Virus record (IMG/VR): IMGVR_UViG_3300034374_005200
Coordinates: 1-26,638 of that record
Strand: one strand, 5' to 3'
DNA length: 26,638 nucleotides
DNA from: a virus
The notes beneath the pieces are model-generated. The model was not told where the DNA came from. It worked only from the letters and a program-made list of their open reading frames with translations, and searched no databases. Shown here piece by piece: positions 2,352 to 9,787 of the stretch. A program made the translations under genes and the position numbers. The first letter of the stretch is position 1. Each line of letters starts with the position of its first letter.

Positions 2352-2666
2352 TCATGCGCTCTGCGGCGATTCTGAGCAATCCTCGATACCTTTTAGCTCT
2401 GGCCTCTCTTTGTAACTCTTACTATTCCACCATTCCTTACGCAATTGAGAATCATTCCTATCAATACAAATACTTACTTCTAGACTTTCTCTCGGGTAAT
2501 GGGGTCTATATCCTAGCCTGTAAAAGTAGGCATAAAAGCTCAGGACTTCATGATAACCCCTTGAGATATTCCCGTGCCCAGCGGCCAGCAAGATAGCTCT
2601 ATCCGCCTCGGTTATATACCTTTTTAACCATTTAGAATTTGGCTTGCTTGGCCTTCCTTTAGGCAT
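2352..2666 (-). CDS. Unknown 104-residue protein
   Basis: The N-terminus is basic (MPKGRPSKPNSKWLKRY), followed by a helical stretch ITEADRAILLAAGHGNISRG that looks like a short helix-turn-helix, and then a Tyr- and Arg-rich region. A DNA-binding role is plausible. It is the last gene of the minus-strand early arm and overlaps the upstream gene by eight bases. No family is recognised, and no terminator is obvious downstream. Confidence 0.6.
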   Translation of the reverse strand: MPKGRPSKPNSKWLKRYITEADRAILLAAGHGNISRGYHEVLSFYAYFYRLGYRPHYPRESLEVSICIDRNDSQLRKEWWNSKSYKERPELKGIEDCSESPQSA

Positions 2667-3082: not shown

Positions 3083-3368
3083 GGCTTACTCCGTTTAGTT
3101 TAGAGACTACTTTGTTGTGAGTTTCATCGTCTTGCTTTGATACATAACCCTCAATATCTCCGTGAACTAGCCTGAAACTTATATACGGATGATCGCACTT
3201 GTTTTCTTTAATCATCTTTGATTGAAACTCTTTAGTGCAATCAGTACAGAACCAAGTTGAATACGGCGGTAGTGAAGCATTAGCTAGTTTTCTCCACTCC
3301 CAGAACTCATCATAATTTGTACAGTTTGGAATCCGTTTAACGTGATACTGCAAAAGGTGTCGTCTCAT
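3069..3368 (-). CDS. Unknown protein with a Cys/His site
   Basis: 99 residues. A central FCTDCTKEFQSKMIKENKCD segment followed by HP carries C-x2-C, a third Cys and a His, consistent with zinc binding. The N-terminus is basic and aromatic. It overlaps neighbours on both sides (14 and 4 bases) within the early arm. I cannot assign a family. Confidence 0.6.
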   Translation of the reverse strand: MRRHLLQYHVKRIPNCTNYDEFWEWRKLANASLPPYSTWFCTDCTKEFQSKMIKENKCDHPYISFRLVHGDIEGYVSKQDDETHNKVVSKLNGVSHEPE

Positions 3369-3553
3369 TTAAGTTTATACCTGTCACGACAAGGCGCACA
3401 GACGTCGTTAATCAATCTTCCCGACCATTCACCACACAAGTCACACTCGCCAGGCTCTCCTTTTTGAAGTTTCGCAGCCTTTCTGATTCTCTTTACTTCA
3501 GCGTCAGTCATGGCGTCCTGATGCTCATTAGCTCGATCAATCTCGTCGGACAT
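3365..3553 (-). CDS. TraR/DksA-like zinc-finger protein
   Basis: 62 residues. The N-terminus SDEIDRANEHQDA and the C-terminal C4 finger (CDLCG near residues 37-41, CAPC near 52-55) are the arrangement of small phage and plasmid TraR proteins. TraR proteins bind the RNA-polymerase secondary channel and change promoter choice. The finger here is intact. Length is within the usual 60-75 range. In this phage, which has no RNA polymerase gene in view, it could help redirect host transcription. Confidence 0.75.
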   Translation of the reverse strand: MSDEIDRANEHQDAMTDAEVKRIRKAAKLQKGEPGECDLCGEWSGRLINDVCAPCRDRYKLK

Positions 3554-3947
3554 CTAATGCCTCTGTCTTTTCCTGAAAATGTTTTATTAAATCTTCCAGC
3601 TCAGTCCGCGTAAACTTTCTTGTTTGATACTTTAACTGCATCAATTCTAGTAAAGTGTCTTTTCCGTATAAACGAAGGATGTACAAACTCATGTCATCCT
3701 GCCGACCACCCATAAAATGATTACACCTAGTACATTGAGGATGTACGTTCCTCTCATCCCATCTGGTTGACATGTGTTGACGTTTAATAAAGTGTCCAGC
3801 GTCAATATCTTTGTAGTACTTGTAAGAACCACAAGTCACACACTGAGTAGTCCCACCTTCGTCCGAGTCTCTTAGTCTGATGTACAGAGAAAAAACTCTG
3901 TCCAGCTTCTTCCATAAAGTCTTTAAAGGTACTAACTTTTTACGCAT
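3537..3947 (-). CDS. ninG: NinG-like recombination protein (Rap family)
   Basis: 136 residues. It shows the NinG pattern: an N-terminal basic helix, C-x2-C at C36 and C39, the DAGHFIKRQHM block (H52), N-V-H-P-Q-C-T-R-C-N with C72 and C75, and a helical basic C-terminus. In lambda the equivalent protein helps focus recombination at branched DNA. It is shorter than lambda NinG (about 200 residues) but has both metal-binding halves. Being in the arm opposite erf and the exonuclease, it extends this phage's recombination set. It overlaps the TraR-like gene by 17 bases and the upstream gene by 8. Confidence 0.8.
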   Translation of the reverse strand: MRKKLVPLKTLWKKLDRVFSLYIRLRDSDEGGTTQCVTCGSYKYYKDIDAGHFIKRQHMSTRWDERNVHPQCTRCNHFMGGRQDDMSLYILRLYGKDTLLELMQLKYQTRKFTRTELEDLIKHFQEKTEALDVRRD

Positions 3948-4191: not shown

Positions 4192-4334
4192 GAGTCAAAA
4201 GCTCCCCATTTCTTCGTTAAAGTATCTACCAGTGCTTTCCTGTAAACCTTACATGGTTCAGTCAGGATAAACCTTGTTTTGCAGTGTTCGCAATTGAAGT
4301 CATACACTGAACTGTTTAGCTTGCAGTCTATCAT
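4119..4334 (-). CDS. Unknown small Cys-rich protein, first gene of the minus-strand early arm
   Basis: 71 residues. CEHCKTRF (C-x2-C), then EPCKVYRKALV and a late CSCHQRC cluster suggest a zinc-binding mini-protein, like small phage proteins that begin with C-x2-C near a conserved Arg-Phe. There is no clear Shine-Dalgarno sequence before the ATG at 4334. The last 73 bases are shared with the next gene. Either this is a true overlap or the C-terminus has been extended by a frameshift. Confidence 0.5.
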   Translation of the reverse strand: MIDCKLNSSVYDFNCEHCKTRFILTEPCKVYRKALVDTLTKKWGAFDSWKEKPHCSCHQRCQRREKITAFR

Positions 4335-4362
4335 CAGTTAAATTTTAACGAATGTCAATAGG

Positions 4363-4419
4363 GGTGGTGCAGAGTCACCACCGGAGGGATATTGTGGCCT
4401 CTGCTGCCGGTGTTTTTTT
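4363..4419 (+). terminator. Two mutually exclusive hairpins ending in a T-run (terminator or attenuator)
   Basis: Hairpin A is GGTGGTG-CAGAGT-CACCACC (4363-4382), perfect. Hairpin B is CACCGG (4379-4384) with CCGGTG (4407-4412), followed by seven T (4413-4419). They share CACC and cannot form together, so this is the layout of an antiterminator and terminator for plus-strand RNA. No plus-strand promoter is evident just upstream, so its client transcript is unknown. Confidence 0.5.
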
Positions 4420-4496
4420 GCGTACCATGACGCAAGAATCAGCCACTACCGGCTTGGCTTTATCATTATACTAAACCTTTAAACAATAAGACCACT

Positions 4497-4637
4497 ACCG
4501 AAACCAAATTCGGTGAACTAAGCCAGGTGTCGTATCCCGTAACAACGTTCTGACCGCTGGCCTAGACCAGTTGGGTCGGGCATAGCAGGTGTCTCCCCTC
4601 GCTCCGCAGCTACTTCTCCTGCGGCCTCTGCCCCGAC
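4497..4637. other. Run of strong hairpins in the gene-free early intergenic region
   Basis: No coding frame is convincing here. Visible pairings: ACCGAA-ACCAAA-TTCGGT (4497-4514); GACC/GGTC (4565-4577); GTCGGG (4575-4580) with CCCGAC (4632-4637), enclosing CCGCAG/CTGCGG (4604-4624). The nine-base word GGCCTCTGC at 4623-4631 also occurs at 4396-4404 in the attenuator-like element. CTCTGCC (4626-4632) can instead pair with GGCAGAG (4816-4822). The strand transcribed cannot be told from palindromes alone. Confidence 0.45.
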
Positions 4638-4678
4638 TAGGACTTCTTACTTACGCCCTGTCCCTTTGCGCGGCCATG

Positions 4679-4818
4679 AAAAAACCCCTACGACTGGGCT
4701 TTAGGTCGTGGCGATGACGGGCGCTGGAACCCAGAACAGTCGCACGTCAAAGACCAAAACCCATGCGTAGGGGTACTGAGTTCAAACAGCTCCGCCACAG
4801 AGCGACCTTTTTCAAGGC
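4679..4818 (-). ncRNA. Candidate structured small RNA of about 140 nt
   Basis: The minus strand from about 4818 to 4679 has a promoter candidate in front (4825-4853) and ends in CGTAGGGG plus six T. That 3' arm pairs perfectly over nine bases with an arm 73 bases upstream (4684-4692 with 4766-4774). Further pairings: 4703-4708 with 4803-4808, 4708-4713 with 4793-4798, and CGACTG (4691-4696) with CAGTCG (4737-4742). The first two cross the nine-base stem, so a pseudoknot or alternative folds are implied. No ribosome site or plausible gene is present. It could be a free small RNA or an attenuated leader of the 4334-2352 arm. Confidence 0.5.
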
Positions 4819-4824
4819 AGAGAA

Positions 4825-4853
4825 ATCATATCTAAATGGACAGCATGACACAA
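4825..4853 (-). promoter_or_regulatory. Candidate minus-strand sigma70 promoter
   Basis: Read on the minus strand: TTGTGT (4853-4848), 17 bases, TATGAT (4830-4825). The -10 matches 5 of 6 and the -35 keeps TTG. The start would fall near 4818, just before a structured RNA candidate. It is back to back with the strong plus-strand promoter at 4905-4933, leaving about 50 AT-rich bases between them. A TATAAT at 4470-4465 is a second possible -10 closer to the genes but lacks a -35. Confidence 0.5.
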
Positions 4854-4904
4854 TCTATTTTTCAACTTTTTTATAAGCCATTGAATTTTAATGATAAATA
4901 ATTG

Positions 4905-4933
4905 TTGACATGAATACTTTAACGCCTTAATAT
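4905..4933 (+). promoter_or_regulatory. Strong sigma70 promoter of the plus-strand early arm
   Basis: TTGACA (4905-4910, 6 of 6), 17-base spacer, TAATAT (4928-4933). Transcription would start near 4940, about 38 bases before the first gene, whose ribosome site AAGGAG lies at about 4967-4972. It is the best promoter in the window and suits immediate early expression by host RNA polymerase. Confidence 0.85.
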
Positions 4934-4977
4934 CACTCCACGGTCGAAGCCTGAGACCTTACAAAAAAGGAGACAAG

Positions 4978-5169
4978 ATGTTAAACGCTATCGAAGACAT
5001 CAGCGCAGAACTGAGATACCTGACGGAACTCCTCGAAGTCAGGGAAAAAATCAGAGCATACAAGACTCTGTACCCCACCCAAAAAAAATACGCCTCTCGC
5101 CTTACCTATGACGTTATAACGTCATTGATGGCACGTGAAATTCAACTCAAACAATACCTGGAGCAATAA
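4978..5169 (+). CDS. Small helical protein, first gene of the plus-strand early arm
   Basis: 63 residues, nearly all helix, with heptad-like leucines (AELRYLTELLEVREKIRAYK) and no transmembrane segment. Strong ribosome site AAGGAGACAAG. The stop overlaps the erf start (TAATG). A partner or regulator of the recombination genes is possible from position alone. No family recognised. Confidence 0.7.
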   Translation: MLNAIEDISAELRYLTELLEVREKIRAYKTLYPTQKKYASRLTYDVITSLMAREIQLKQYLEQ

Positions 5170-5717
5170 TGGAAACGAAAGCAATCTTCCCCGCGCTGGT
5201 CAAAGCACAAAAAGAATTCGGGCCAGCACTAAAGACTTCAACCAATCCACACTTTCGGTCCAAATACGCCTCTCTGGATGCTTGCGTTGAAGCTGTCATT
5301 GACGCGCTAAACAATAACGGCATCATGTTAATGCAATTCACTCATCCTTGCGAAGACGGTGTTATCGTTGAAACAATGTTCATCCATGAATCAGGTGAGC
5401 ATGTTTCTGGAGGTAGGCTGCATGTTCCCGCGTCTAAACAGGACGCTCAGGGATATGGATCGGCTCTTACCTACGCAAGACGGTATAGTCTGCAAGCTGC
5501 CTGCGGTATCGCCCCTGAAGACGATGACGGTAACGCAGCGTCACGGATACAGAAGCCAGTACAAGTCAAGTCTGGCCGAGATTATGAAACGCTGAAGTTT
5601 ATCTTGGATGCATGTGAATCATTGGATCAACTGAAGGAAGAATACTCAAAGATGACTCCTGATGAACGATCACTTGTGTCCAAACTGAAGGACGAATTGA
5701 AGGAAAAACTGAAATGA
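5169..5717 (+). CDS. erf: Erf-family single-strand annealing protein
   Basis: 182 residues. The N-terminal half has the ERF-superfamily blocks: A-L-V-K-A-Q-K-E-F-G, N-P-H-F-R-S-K-Y-A-S-L-D, and QGYGSALTYARRYSLQAACG followed by an acidic EDDDGN. Erf proteins form rings that anneal complementary single strands during phage recombination and genome circularisation. Residues 125-182 are a Lys/Glu-rich helical tail. Four bases overlap with the exonuclease gene, as expected for an annealase-exonuclease pair working together on ends. Confidence 0.9.
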   Translation: METKAIFPALVKAQKEFGPALKTSTNPHFRSKYASLDACVEAVIDALNNNGIMLMQFTHPCEDGVIVETMFIHESGEHVSGGRLHVPASKQDAQGYGSALTYARRYSLQAACGIAPEDDDGNAASRIQKPVQVKSGRDYETLKFILDACESLDQLKEEYSKMTPDERSLVSKLKDELKEKLK

Positions 5718-6355
5718 GAGATCGCAACGAATTTCAGAATACTGGTGACTGGCACTCAGCCAGAACCGGAAAGCTGACAGCTTCTCGCATGGCAAGTGCA
5801 ATGTCTTTCCTTAAAGCAAAAGCAGGCAAAGAACCTGAGGAATCGTCTAAAAGATACGATTTGAAGAAAGAGATTCTTCTGGAAAGACTCACCGGAAACA
5901 TCGTAAGCAAATTCGTCAACGATGCTATGCAATGGGGAATCGACCATGAACCACTGGCGAAAGAGGTTTTTGAGCAAAAGACGGGTATTCTCATTGAAGA
6001 TGTTGGATTTGTTGATTTTCCTGGTGGCGTTGATAACTTTGGCGCTTCTCCCGATGGTCTTACCTCCGACGGAGGACTCATCGAATGTAAATGCCCAACA
6101 GAAAAAGTCATGCTAGAGTATTTGTTAAAGGATACAATTCCTGATGACTACAAGAAACAGATGTGTGTTCAATGTCTTTGCACCGGAAGGTCTTTTGTTC
6201 ACTTTGTTGCATACGACCCAAGACTCCCAGAAGACATTAACTTTTTCCACAAAGTCTACACGCCAACGAAGGAGGAACTAGACGAAGTTTTACATGCAGC
6301 AATGAGGTTTCTCGAAGAAGTTGACGAGATGTTTTTGCAATTAACTCATAGGTGA
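5714..6355 (+). CDS. YqaJ/lambda-exonuclease-type recombination nuclease
   Basis: 213 residues, the normal size. Motifs in order: RTGKLTASRM near 17-26, WGIDHEP with E79, GASPDGL with D114, and the catalytic LIECKCP with E124 and K126, then K-K-Q-M (Q149). These are the metal-binding and catalytic residues of the PD-(D/E)XK alkaline exonuclease family. It would resect double-strand ends 5' to 3' for the Erf protein encoded immediately upstream. All key residues are present. Confidence 0.9.
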   Translation: MRDRNEFQNTGDWHSARTGKLTASRMASAMSFLKAKAGKEPEESSKRYDLKKEILLERLTGNIVSKFVNDAMQWGIDHEPLAKEVFEQKTGILIEDVGFVDFPGGVDNFGASPDGLTSDGGLIECKCPTEKVMLEYLLKDTIPDDYKKQMCVQCLCTGRSFVHFVAYDPRLPEDINFFHKVYTPTKEELDEVLHAAMRFLEEVDEMFLQLTHR

Positions 6356-6937: not shown

Positions 6938-6985
6938 TGGATAGCCGAAAGCGGATGCCGGTGTAAGTCGCCTGTTGGTGCATCG

Positions 6986-7011
6986 GACGCAGCGAGTAGG
7001 CTTACTTTTGG
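6986..7011 (+). repeat. Direct repeat copy 1, boundary of the PAPS-reductase-like gene
   Basis: Core CAGCGAGTAGGCTTACTTTT, shared with copies at 7759-7783 and 8261-8285. Read in frame with the downstream ATG at 7019 it would encode D-A-A-S-R-L-T-F-G, but no start codon lies upstream in that frame. Confidence 0.9.
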
Positions 7012-7018
7012 AAAAAAG

Positions 7019-7750
7019 ATGAATAGAGTTTTATGTTGGTTTTCTTGTGGCGCTGCAAGCGCATATTCAGCAAAACTAGCTATTGAAAAATACGGTGATT
7101 TGGTTGAGGTTGTTTATTGCGATACTTTGAAATACGAACATCCAGACAATTTAAGATTTATGCACGATTGTGAGAAATGGTTCGGGAAAAAAATTGAATT
7201 AATTCGCTCTACAAAATACTCAGATATTTATGATGTATTTGATAAAACGGGGTGGCTAGTCGGACCAGCAGGAGCAAGATGTACTACAGAGCTAAAGAAG
7301 TTGGTTAGGAGGAAATATCAAAAAGAAGATGATTTGCATATTTTTGGTTACACGGTCGAAGAGTCGAATAGGAAACATCAGTTGATGATTGGTGAGCCTG
7401 ACCTTAAATGCGAGTTTCCTTTGATTGAAAAGGGAATAACAAAACGAAATTGTTTGGAGGCACTTTATAGTGCAGGAATTGAGATTCCTGCTATGTATAG
7501 GCTAGGCTACCCTAATAACAACTGTATTGGATGTGTAAAGGGTGGCGCTGGATATTGGAACAAGATCAGATTCGATTTTCCTGATGCTTTTGAAAAGATG
7601 GCAAAACAAGAACGGAAAATGAATGTCGCAATTAACAAAAGAATGGATGGCGAAAAAAGGATTCCAATTTTTTTGGATGAACTTCCTGTCAATATGGGCA
7701 GGATTGAATCGGAACCAAACATTGAGTGCGGTGTGTTGTGTCTTAGTTGA
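7019..7750 (+). CDS. PAPS-reductase/ATP-pyrophosphatase-like phage protein
   Basis: 243 residues. An S-C-G-A-A-S-A loop at 9-15 replaces the S-G-G-K-D-S-type PP-loop. YCDTLKYEHPDN (33-44) and GARCTTELKK (85-94) are further family blocks. NNNCIGCVKGGAGYWNKIR (from residue 166) adds C169 and C172. This is the phage branch usually labelled phosphoadenosine phosphosulfate reductase; members are thought to adenylate or activate a substrate, and several relatives act in nucleic-acid sulfur chemistry. The actual substrate is unknown. It is more AT-rich than the XF1762-like and methyltransferase genes downstream, and is bounded on both sides by the 25-base direct repeat. Confidence 0.75.
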   Translation: MNRVLCWFSCGAASAYSAKLAIEKYGDLVEVVYCDTLKYEHPDNLRFMHDCEKWFGKKIELIRSTKYSDIYDVFDKTGWLVGPAGARCTTELKKLVRRKYQKEDDLHIFGYTVEESNRKHQLMIGEPDLKCEFPLIEKGITKRNCLEALYSAGIEIPAMYRLGYPNNNCIGCVKGGAGYWNKIRFDFPDAFEKMAKQERKMNVAINKRMDGEKRIPIFLDELPVNMGRIESEPNIECGVLCLS

Positions 7751-7758
7751 CGCAACAT

Positions 7759-7783
7759 ACGCAGCGAGTAGGCTTACTTTTGG
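7759..7783 (+). repeat. Direct repeat copy 2, boundary between two accessory genes
   Basis: Same sequence as copy 1 over ACGCAGCGAGTAGGCTTACT plus TTTGG. It again lies in frame with the following ATG (7797), coding A-A-S-R-L-T-F-G. It sits nine bases after the stop of the PAPS-reductase-like gene. Confidence 0.9.
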
Positions 7784-7796
7784 GAGGAAAGAAACA

Positions 7797-8252
7797 ATGG
7801 GCCATAAACTTTTTGTGACCCCCATTGATTTTGCAGAGGCAAACGCTTTTGTTGCCCGATTTCATCGGCATCACAAGCCTATGCCTGGTGTTAAGTTTTG
7901 CGTGGCGGTCAGTGACGAAAATCATTTGGTGCGTGGCGTGGCAATGGTTGGAAGGCCGGTGGCGAGAAACAGCGACAACGGAATGACTCTTGAGGTCAAT
8001 CGCTGCTGCACTGACGGAGCAAAAAATGCGTGCTCAATGCTGTACGGTGCGGCATGGCGGGCGGCAAAGGCTCTCTGATACCAACGCCTTATCACCTACA
8101 CTCTGCCAGCAGAGGGCGGGGCAAGTTTAAGAGCAGCTGGCTGGAAGTTAATCGGGGAAAGAGGTGGCGGAAACTGGAATTGTAAAAGCAGGCCGCGTGT
8201 TGATACCGCTGAATATCTGCGGGGTCAAAAACTACTTTGGGAGGCTAAATGA
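7797..8252 (+). pseudogene. XF1762-like phage protein gene interrupted by an in-frame TGA
   Basis: ATG 7797 with GGGAGGAAAG upstream. The reading gives 93 residues, with FVARFHRHHKPMPGVKF, VGRPVARNSDNGMTLEVNR and NACSMLYGAAWRAAKAL, then TGA at 8076-8078. The same frame continues 57 codons (YQRLITYTLPAEGGASLRAA, GWKLIGERGGG, SRPRVDT, KLLWEAK) to a proper TGA at 8250-8252. Together this is the full family, which normally has Gly at the stop position (GGA to TGA is one base change). Other genes here end in TGA, so general recoding is excluded. A nonsense mutation, a sequencing error or stop read-through remain. The family resembles GNAT-like phage proteins of unknown role. Confidence 0.8.
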
Positions 8253-8287
8253 ATAAAGCAGACGCAGCGAGTAGGCTAACTTTTTAG
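8249..8287 (+). CDS. 12-codon minigene containing repeat copy 3
   Basis: ATG 8249 overlaps the stop of the XF1762-like frame; the peptide is MNKADAASRLTF, then TAG. It looks like the surviving start of a longer ancestral gene whose beginning is shared, without start codon, by the other two repeat copies. It could also serve only to couple translation into the next gene. Confidence 0.3.
   Translation: MNKADAASRLTF
8261..8285 (+). repeat. Direct repeat copy 3, right boundary of the XF1762-like gene
   Basis: GACGCAGCGAGTAGGC then TAACTTTTT; it differs from copies 1 and 2 by one base in the shared core (TTAC to TAAC). It is the only copy with an in-frame ATG before it. Confidence 0.85.
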
Positions 8288-8811: not shown

Positions 8812-8896
8812 GGGCGAGTGGTGAAATTGGTAGACACAAGGGACTTAAAATCCCTCGGCGCAAGCCATGCCGGTTCGATTCCGGCCTTGCCCACCA
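8812..8896 (+). tRNA. tRNA-Leu (anticodon UAA)
   Basis: 85 bases with 3' CCA encoded. Acceptor GGGCGAG pairs with CTTGCCC (one G-T). The D-arm contains TTGGTAGAC. The anticodon stem AGGGA/TCCCT encloses CTTAAAA with TAA at 8846-8848. The long type II variable arm (GGC-GCAA-GCC) fits leucine. The T-arm is GCCGG-TTCGATT-CCGGC, discriminator A. It lies inside the plus-strand early operon and would be cut out of the mRNA. It reads UUA and UUG codons, which an AT-leaning phage may use more than its host. Confidence 0.97.
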
Positions 8897-8907
8897 TAGG
8901 AGAAACC

Positions 8908-9054
8908 ATGAAACTGACCTACGAAGACATCGAGACCTTGAGAGATACATTAGTATTTAAGCTGCCAATTGATCCTGAAGAAGCAAACATACTGTGCGAT
9001 ATGGCAGCAAGAAGTCTTGATCTTGAATATGAATTAGAGGATTCAAGTGAATGA
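8908..9054 (+). CDS. Small acidic protein between tRNA and methyltransferase
   Basis: 48 residues from ATG 8908, with AGGAG at 8898-8902. An open frame extends back through the tRNA but is spurious there. The protein is helical and acidic (EDIETLRDTLVFKLPIDPEE; ends ELEDSSE). Its last bases overlap the methyltransferase GTG at 9047. Unknown function. Confidence 0.6.
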   Translation: MKLTYEDIETLRDTLVFKLPIDPEEANILCDMAARSLDLEYELEDSSE

Positions 9055-9787
9055 GCTGGCTCTTTTCGCGGGCGCTGGTGGCGGAATACTTGGGGGAAAA
9101 CTTCTCGGATGGCGAACAGTCTGCGCCGTTGAGTGGGAGCCATATCCAGCAAGCGTTTTGTGCGCCCGACAAAATGACGGCCTTCTCCCGCCTTTCCCGA
9201 TTTGGGATGACGTACAAACCTTTGACGGCAGACCGTGGCGAGGAATTGTTGACGTTATATCTGGCGGATTTCCGTGCCAAGACATCAGCATTGCAGGAAA
9301 AGGTGCCGGAATCGACGGCACCCGATCAGGCATGTGGTCCCACATGGCGCGGGTGGTTGGCGAAGTACGACCCCGATTCGTATTCGTGGAAAACAGCCCA
9401 ATGCTCGTTAATCGAGGACTCGGGCGAGTGCTTGGAGACCTTTCCGCGCTCGGGTATGACGCGAGATGGATTGTTATGGGAGCTGCCGATGTTGGAGCAA
9501 ACCACCAGAGGGATCGAATCTGGATTGTCGGAAAAATGGCCTACGCCAAATGCGGGAGAGGCCAAGCAATCAAGCAATTTGGTTCGGAAAGCAGAACGGC
9601 GGGTGATTCATGCGGCAAAAGGCGTTCATCTTCAGGAATCTTTGACGGAGCGAGTTGGTGGCAAGCTGAACCCAACGTGGGTCGAGTGGCTGATGGGGTG
9701 GCCGCTAGGGTGGACAGACTTAAAGCCATTGGTAACGGTCAAGTCCCATTGTGTGCAGCAACAGCCTGGAAATTACTCGGAGAATGA
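9047..9787 (+). CDS. C5-cytosine DNA methyltransferase
   Basis: 246 residues from GTG 9047. Motif I LALFAGAGGG (4-13) binds SAM. Motif IV SGGFPCQDIS carries the catalytic Cys at residue 77. Motif VI is ENS (115-117), motif VIII QRDR (154-157), motif X AIGNGQVP (227-234). All catalytic blocks are present. The region between VIII and IX (about 165-205) is short and low in complexity, so the target-recognition domain is minimal, as in many small phage enzymes. It would methylate cytosine in phage DNA, probably to escape host restriction. No partner restriction enzyme is present. The gene is GC-rich relative to neighbours and overlaps genes at both ends. A second long frame covers it entirely. 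Confidence 0.92.
   Translation: MNELALFAGAGGGILGGKLLGWRTVCAVEWEPYPASVLCARQNDGLLPPFPIWDDVQTFDGRPWRGIVDVISGGFPCQDISIAGKGAGIDGTRSGMWSHMARVVGEVRPRFVFVENSPMLVNRGLGRVLGDLSALGYDARWIVMGAADVGANHQRDRIWIVGKMAYAKCGRGQAIKQFGSESRTAGDSCGKRRSSSGIFDGASWWQAEPNVGRVADGVAARVDRLKAIGNGQVPLCAATAWKLLGE

Follow-up and report, generated by a model that had tools for sequence, protein, structure and literature searches.

A hypervariable pseudoknotted RNA beside the Erf operon of uncultured aquatic phages and its possible role in allele-specific self-recognition

The stretch of DNA analysed here (the window) comprises an entire IMG/VR virus record, 26,638 bases long and derived from an uncultured aquatic phage, and the evidence throughout is the comparative sequence of uncultivated phages. 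The window belongs to a tailed phage whose genes form a rightward early arm and a leftward arm. The rightward early operon is predicted by promoter scan to start from TTGACA-17-TAATAT (4905–4933, plus strand), in a region that is conserved in relatives, and its second gene encodes an Erf-like single-strand annealing protein (5169–5717, plus strand; PHROG 2324, E 7.5e-44); a RecE-like exonuclease (5714–6355) lies on the same arm. Judged by Erf, the closest named phage is Methylophilales phage MEP301, with 65% identity across 71% of the protein. The leftward arm, which includes a NinG-like gene (3537–3947) among others, has a separate promoter, TTGACA-17-GATGAT (4330–4358, minus strand; promoter scan), and the gap at 4335–4977 contains no listed gene. 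Elsewhere in the window, a 38-bp direct repeat occurs three times (6974–7011, 7746–7783 and 8249–8286) around a phosphoadenosine phosphosulfate reductase-like gene (7019–7750), which together look like a repeat-bounded gene cassette. A tRNA-Leu (TAA) is located on the rightward arm at 8812–8896, and a tRNA is also present in the related contigs L027, L084, L103 and L110 (L-numbers denote the related viral contigs or loci compared with the window). A DNA cytosine methyltransferase-like gene at 9047–9787 is absent from the same place in L098, L103 and L002.

Within the gap, a noncoding RNA of about 140 nt, designated RNA A, is predicted on the minus strand at 4679–4818. Its promoter (4825–4853, minus strand) consists of a -35 element TTGTGT (4853–4848), a 17-nt spacer and a -10 element TATGAT (4830–4825), and forms a divergent pair with that of the rightward early operon. 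This promoter is weak in comparison with the consensus (8/12) and is therefore missed by a generic promoter scan. The best -35/-10 pair in 28 relatives nevertheless averages 8.6/12 versus 6.8 for shuffled upstream sequences, and the layout is kept in these relatives as a -35 element, 16–18 nt and a -10 element, which in most of them ends 6 nt before the RNA start. The 140-nt RNA has a folding energy of -57.4 kcal/mol (z = -3.8), equalled by none of 200 shuffles, and ends in a stem followed by six U residues. Both the promoter and the roughly 140 gene-free bases closed by a terminal stem and six T, as pointed out in a preliminary description of this DNA, are thus borne out. That description had also considered the possibilities of a reading frame conserved across the segment and of stems lacking compensatory changes in homologues. 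No reading frame is conserved across the RNA A segment, the open frame varying from allele to allele, and compensatory changes were found in helices described below, among them P2, PKb and H1. A promoter scan of the plus strand revealed no promoter-like site within 4679–4818 or in the 200 bases to the left of it. RNA A is almost certainly an independent noncoding gene, equipped with a promoter and an intrinsic terminator of its own, and the same near-certainty may be attached to its computed fold.

Related contigs were fetched with Erf as bait, and further members were then added by pattern scans and a covariance model. The segment 4670–4830 is conserved, upstream of and divergent from Erf, in seven of the Erf-bait contigs (partly in L027), and at least about 26 distinct alleles of RNA A were identified in viral contigs, most of them divergent from the Erf recombination operon. 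Six contigs held out of model building (L181, L190, L223, L227, L260 and L261) matched the covariance model with E values of 1e-28 to 1e-32. A descriptor comprising the U-run, P2, P3 and H1 gave 19 matches, 3–4 of which are mirror images or doubtful, in 80 Erf loci plus the window, versus 1 in shuffled sequence. A less stringent scan took in the 62 Erf loci that have 1.5 kb or more of upstream sequence; 17 of them scored 60 or higher, all divergent from Erf except L056, whose doubtful match sits on the other strand. The matches listed for a looser pattern (GGGTTTYGGTC..GCGACTT) were mostly one similar segment repeated across many viral contigs. Pattern scanning of bacterial and archaeal genomes gave 18 matches that proved to lack the rest of the RNA and were judged to be chance occurrences. 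The alleles can be divided into the core family F1, including the window, and the families F2 (L008, L010, L011, L012, L015, L016 and L017), F4 (L044, L068, L079 and L275–L292), F5 (L076) and F3 (L022 and L028), the last being less certain than the others. Little primary similarity exists between families, and the fold is common to at least two sequence-divergent ones; a superfamily layout, in which H1 lies upstream of P2, P2 is followed by the U-run and P3 continues P2, is present in the window and further Erf loci. Searches against Rfam 15 returned nothing for RNA A or the adjoining RNA B at gathering or relaxed thresholds, the relaxed search of 4300–5000 yielding just one unrelated 29-base match (E 4.4), and no meaningful similarity to the window and four other A+B loci was found in 50,697 annotated phage records.

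In the predicted fold (all minus strand), the terminator stem P2 pairs 4774–4766 (ACCCCUACG) with 4692–4684 (CGUAGGGGU) and runs into the U-run at 4684–4679. P2 is found in every family, and three of its pairs have changed on both sides among alleles. It is continued by P3 (4696–4762), which is composed of GGGUUU (4762–4757) with AAAGCCC (4702–4696) and GGUC (4755–4752) with GACC (4707–4704) and forms in nearly all alleles (n = 20), and then by stem D, UGACG (4749–4745) with CGUCA (4719–4715), which, as read from the alignment, is swapped for AAUAAUGUG/CACAUUAUU in L027, AGGA/UCCU in L004 and GGGA/UCCC in L098. The strand just 5' of P2 (4783–4776, GAACUCAG) pairs within the P2 loop (4734–4727, CUGGGUUC) to form helix H1, extended by GCUG (4790–4787) with CAGC (4726–4723); H1 crosses the terminator stem and so makes a true pseudoknot. 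When H1 strands were scored with their own and with swapped partners, the mean helix score in F1 (21 alleles) was 29.3 for own partners versus 15.0 for swapped ones, and none of 20,000 permutations reached the own-partner value; the corresponding counts were 0/20,000 in F4 (10 alleles) and 6/20,000 in F2 (7 alleles). A second contact, PKb, joins GUGGCG (4798–4793) to CGCCAC (4713–4708) across P2 and P3 and covaries, with CG, UA and UG at one pair and a U-A to C-G exchange read from the alignments in L181, L223, L227 and L260. A GUGGC-type hairpin loop with a GCCA-type partner 5' of P3 is common to F1, F2, F4 and F5, the loops in F2, F4 and F5 being PKb-like (GUGGCA and GCCA). The two 5' hairpins H0 (CCUU 4817–4814 with AAGG 4809–4806) and S (GCUC 4803–4800 with GAGC 4792–4789) are formed in every allele with letters on both sides. 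Taken jointly, H0, S, PKb, P2 and P3 pair in 97.4% of cells versus 34–49% in slid controls, with 19 cells changed on both sides versus 4.2 +/- 1.6 in shuffles. Computational comparison therefore supports a terminator hairpin (P2-P3-D) that is predicted to be pseudoknotted by an upstream strand (H1) and a loop contact (PKb). The possibility of a pseudoknot had been anticipated from crossing helices at 4703–4713 and 4793–4808, of which the core pairs hold and covary as PKb, while H1, which covaries in three families, had been overlooked.

A further helix, C (GGUCGC with GCGACU), can form in most alleles and was left out of the fold because it is nearly invariant, is partly broken without compensation in L092 and L103, and competes with H0, S and D. 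Weak covariance-model matches to RNA A on the opposite strand are mirror images of palindromic stems, and a second gene there was rejected. On the plus strand, an element at 4364–4421 (GCAGAG - CACCGG - CTCTGC - CCGGTG - T7) faces A and B, its segments interleaved just as they are in RNA A (helix 1, terminator stem, helix 1, stem, U-run). At the corresponding place in L004 (~3110–3165), GCAGGG/CCCTGC represents a compensatory change, and the minimum free energy of the element by itself is unremarkable (z -0.5).

H1 is also the most variable part of the RNA. In close allele pairs, 53 of 125 H1 positions differ (42%) versus 14 of 632 (2%) elsewhere in A (odds ratio 32, p ~1e-33, pooled over five separate pairs); for this count, the limits of the H1 strands were set manually, and pairs were selected on overall closeness rather than on H1. 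For L094, L101 and L190, the differences number 1–2 of 116 positions in A outside H1 and 4–12 of 22–23 within it. On this computational evidence, the sequence of H1 is free, always self-complementary and far more variable than its surroundings. Comparison of the flanks, given as percent identity upstream/A/downstream over 150 bp, yielded 99/70/100% for the window and L098, 97/75/99% for L278 and L288, 94/71/100% for L003 and L005, and 97/78/94% for L275 and L285. The window, L098 and L103 carry three alleles on one backbone, their shared region differing by 0–3 nt per 50 nearly everywhere except in A and a few variable places, and one allele was also found with different flanks (L002). The window and L098, near-identical otherwise, also differ strongly in a small leftward gene (2352–2666, minus strand). 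Since alleles of RNA A recur in independent assemblies, assembly error is unlikely. These comparisons indicate a cassette-wise swapping of A alleles among phages that are 94–100% identical in their flanks. Part of the pattern could result from recombination out of a pool of alleles, with no selection on H1.

Directly after the U-run of A, on the same strand, lies a second structured noncoding RNA that is absent from the preliminary description. This RNA B is of type Y in the window (4490–4678, minus strand; 3' end approximate) and measures roughly 190–290 nt across loci. At least three well-supported types (X, Y and Z) and several others are exchangeable at this position. Consensus folding with alifold gave 61 pairs, 21 with compensatory change, for type Y (8 homologues), 63 pairs with 16 compensatory for type X, and 51 pairs with 13 compensatory for type Z. 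The spacing from A to B is almost nil in F1, F2, F4, F5 and two further A-like types, and in scans for B motifs an A-like RNA was found directly upstream at every real B whose contig reached far enough, including A-like RNAs of yet other sequence read by eye in L291 and L293. A and B are separable modules, because L092 and L261 are alike upstream (95%) and in A (97%) and differ in B. L261, with a normal F1 RNA A followed by an unusual B type, is the sole record of 15 with a tyrosine integrase. The spacing makes it probable that A and B form one transcription unit. As a separate promoter serves the left arm beyond B, transcription through A is the simplest route to B, and since B has no room for a promoter of its own, the terminator of A may set the level of read-through into B.

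Separate targets of RNA A were sought in the fetched contigs, which are partial for most relatives. Stretches of at least 11 nt complementary to the whole RNA, shorter contacts being outside the reach of this search, occurred in their own contigs near chance level, and a search for 8–10 nt of H1 found no separate target. H1 9-mers matched their own contigs 21 times versus 11.9 +/- 4.5 in cross comparisons, with no shared location. This result would be expected if the target of RNA A is A itself.

Self-complementary hypervariability of H1, cassette exchange and the lack of another target together suggest that what the RNA recognizes is its own sequence, and RNA A is tentatively proposed, as a possible and not yet a probable reading, to be an autogenous, allele-specific recognition element, serving as a tag for immunity or incompatibility and also governing read-through into B. 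From the computed gene, fold and variability, an action in trans, an A-B transcript and a biological outcome may be inferred as follows. RNA A would be made as a short terminated RNA and would also precede B, its terminator setting the level at which polymerase reads through into B. Free A from one phage genome could recognize nascent A of the same allele when its H1 strand pairs with the emerging partner strand. Such pairing would alter the pseudoknot and hence termination, resulting in autogenous control. Phages of the same allele, including co-infecting ones, would thereby repress each other (immunity or incompatibility), and those of different alleles would not. If repression is confined to the same allele, rare alleles would be favoured. 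H1 and P2 have no bases in common, so the sequence does not spell out a simple either/or switch. The RNA-based switch suggested in the preliminary description accordingly stays plausible only in modified form, with the RNA's own hypervariable helix as the recognized sequence. The usual reason for immunity is removed by the lack of evidence for lysogeny: among related records that may all be fragments, an integrase occurs in only 1 of 15 and a serine recombinase in 0 of 13.

The main rival, which has to be taken seriously, gives RNA A, together with B, a structural or protein-binding role (as a scaffold, decoy or RNA assembly; perhaps ROOL/GOLLD-like). H1 would then serve architecture alone or act as a contact for inter-molecular assembly, and the differences in it would be uninformative. 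A stable conserved core, covariation, a promoter layout that is kept and the lack of a detected target all suit such an RNA, and there are precedents in ROOL and GOLLD, structured phage-encoded RNAs of unknown function that assemble via covarying contacts (PMC12286853). On the other hand, a neutral helix would be expected neither to exceed the surrounding RNA about 20-fold in variation nor to differ completely beside flanking noncoding DNA that is 94–100% identical. Moreover, the Rfam covariance models of ROOL and GOLLD gave no match at the thresholds used, and those RNAs are ~600–800 nt long, in contrast to 140 nt and ~190–290 nt for A and B, with RNA A situated at a divergent junction beside Erf. 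It is rather improbable that RNA A is instead a cis-only attenuator or ligand-sensing leader that decides transcription into B and does nothing in trans. The terminator abutting B and a single promoter for both would agree with such a leader, which would leave the hypervariable H1 and the swapping of cassettes unexplained and for which Rfam provides no riboswitch match.

Antisense immunity of the P4 CI or P1 C4 type, in which A would pair with a separate early phage transcript, is very unlikely. Such a role was suggested by the site between the early arms, the short structured transcript and the apparent lack of a CI-like repressor, which is upheld in that HTH_3 was found in 0 of 13 related records (which may all be fragments). 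The P4 CI RNA is part of the leader of the early operon that it controls and is released from it by processing; it acts by being complementary to separate sites within the early transcript and confers prophage immunity through RNA-caused transcription termination. RNA A resembles it as a short structured phage RNA near early genes for which termination control is proposed. It differs in having its own promoter and intrinsic terminator, a pseudoknot and a hypervariable self-complementary helix, and in lying divergent from the Erf operon, with the leftward arm separately promoted, and not within an early-operon leader. Within the fetched contigs it also has no complementary sites elsewhere in the phage sequence, the complementarity to separate sites being near chance level and the H1 9-mers having no shared location. 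The analogy with P4, put forward in the preliminary description, is weakened accordingly: P4 CI is the closest system by position and idea, and its defining complementarity was not found in these contigs. The C4 antisense RNA of P1/P7-like phages is likewise a short structured phage-encoded RNA, sharing with RNA A a proposed immunity role, whereas RNA A has no match to the Rfam C4 covariance model at the gathering threshold and no separate complementary target in the fetched contigs. The put antitermination RNAs of HK022 are also phage RNAs beside an early promoter, and RNA A, like them, could act on RNA polymerase; they differ from it in structure, and RNA A lies outside the Erf operon leader and ends in its own terminator. 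The idea that there is no RNA gene, only chance inverted repeats beside an ordinary terminator, can be dismissed at the sequence level, common as terminator-like hairpins are, by covariation in three families, preserved promoter spacing and the descriptor counts (19 real versus 1 shuffled).

For allele-specific self-recognition by RNA A, a parallel may be found in plasmid copy-control RNAs. Hypervariable complementary segments define compatibility groups in ColE1 RNA I/II and IncI-type Inc RNA, and the two strands of the pseudoknot formed by Inc RNA and the repZ leader must covary. By analogy, the hypervariable complementary segments and covarying pseudoknot strands of RNA A could be comparable, whereas its context is a phage and not a plasmid replicon. 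The antisense RNAs of plasmid copy control are counter-transcripts of the opposite strand; for RNA A, the plus-strand scan gave no promoter-like site in the segment or in the 200 bases to its left. A still more speculative reading, somewhat doubtful at present, is that RNA A represents an undescribed class of phage RNA, in which H1 would serve as an identity tag, differing among phages of one population whose genomes are near-identical in other respects, and self/non-self recognition between RNAs would control the exchangeable RNA B and the outcome of co-infection without a repressor protein. The structured RNA class and its adjoining second RNA are both absent from Rfam 15 and from the 50,697 phage records. 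The evolution of the class is unusual: both strands of a single helix change together, yet the remainder of the RNA and the adjacent DNA are near-identical, a pattern known from compatibility or immunity determinants. If this reading is true, RNA would be all that these phages need to distinguish their own kind from others.
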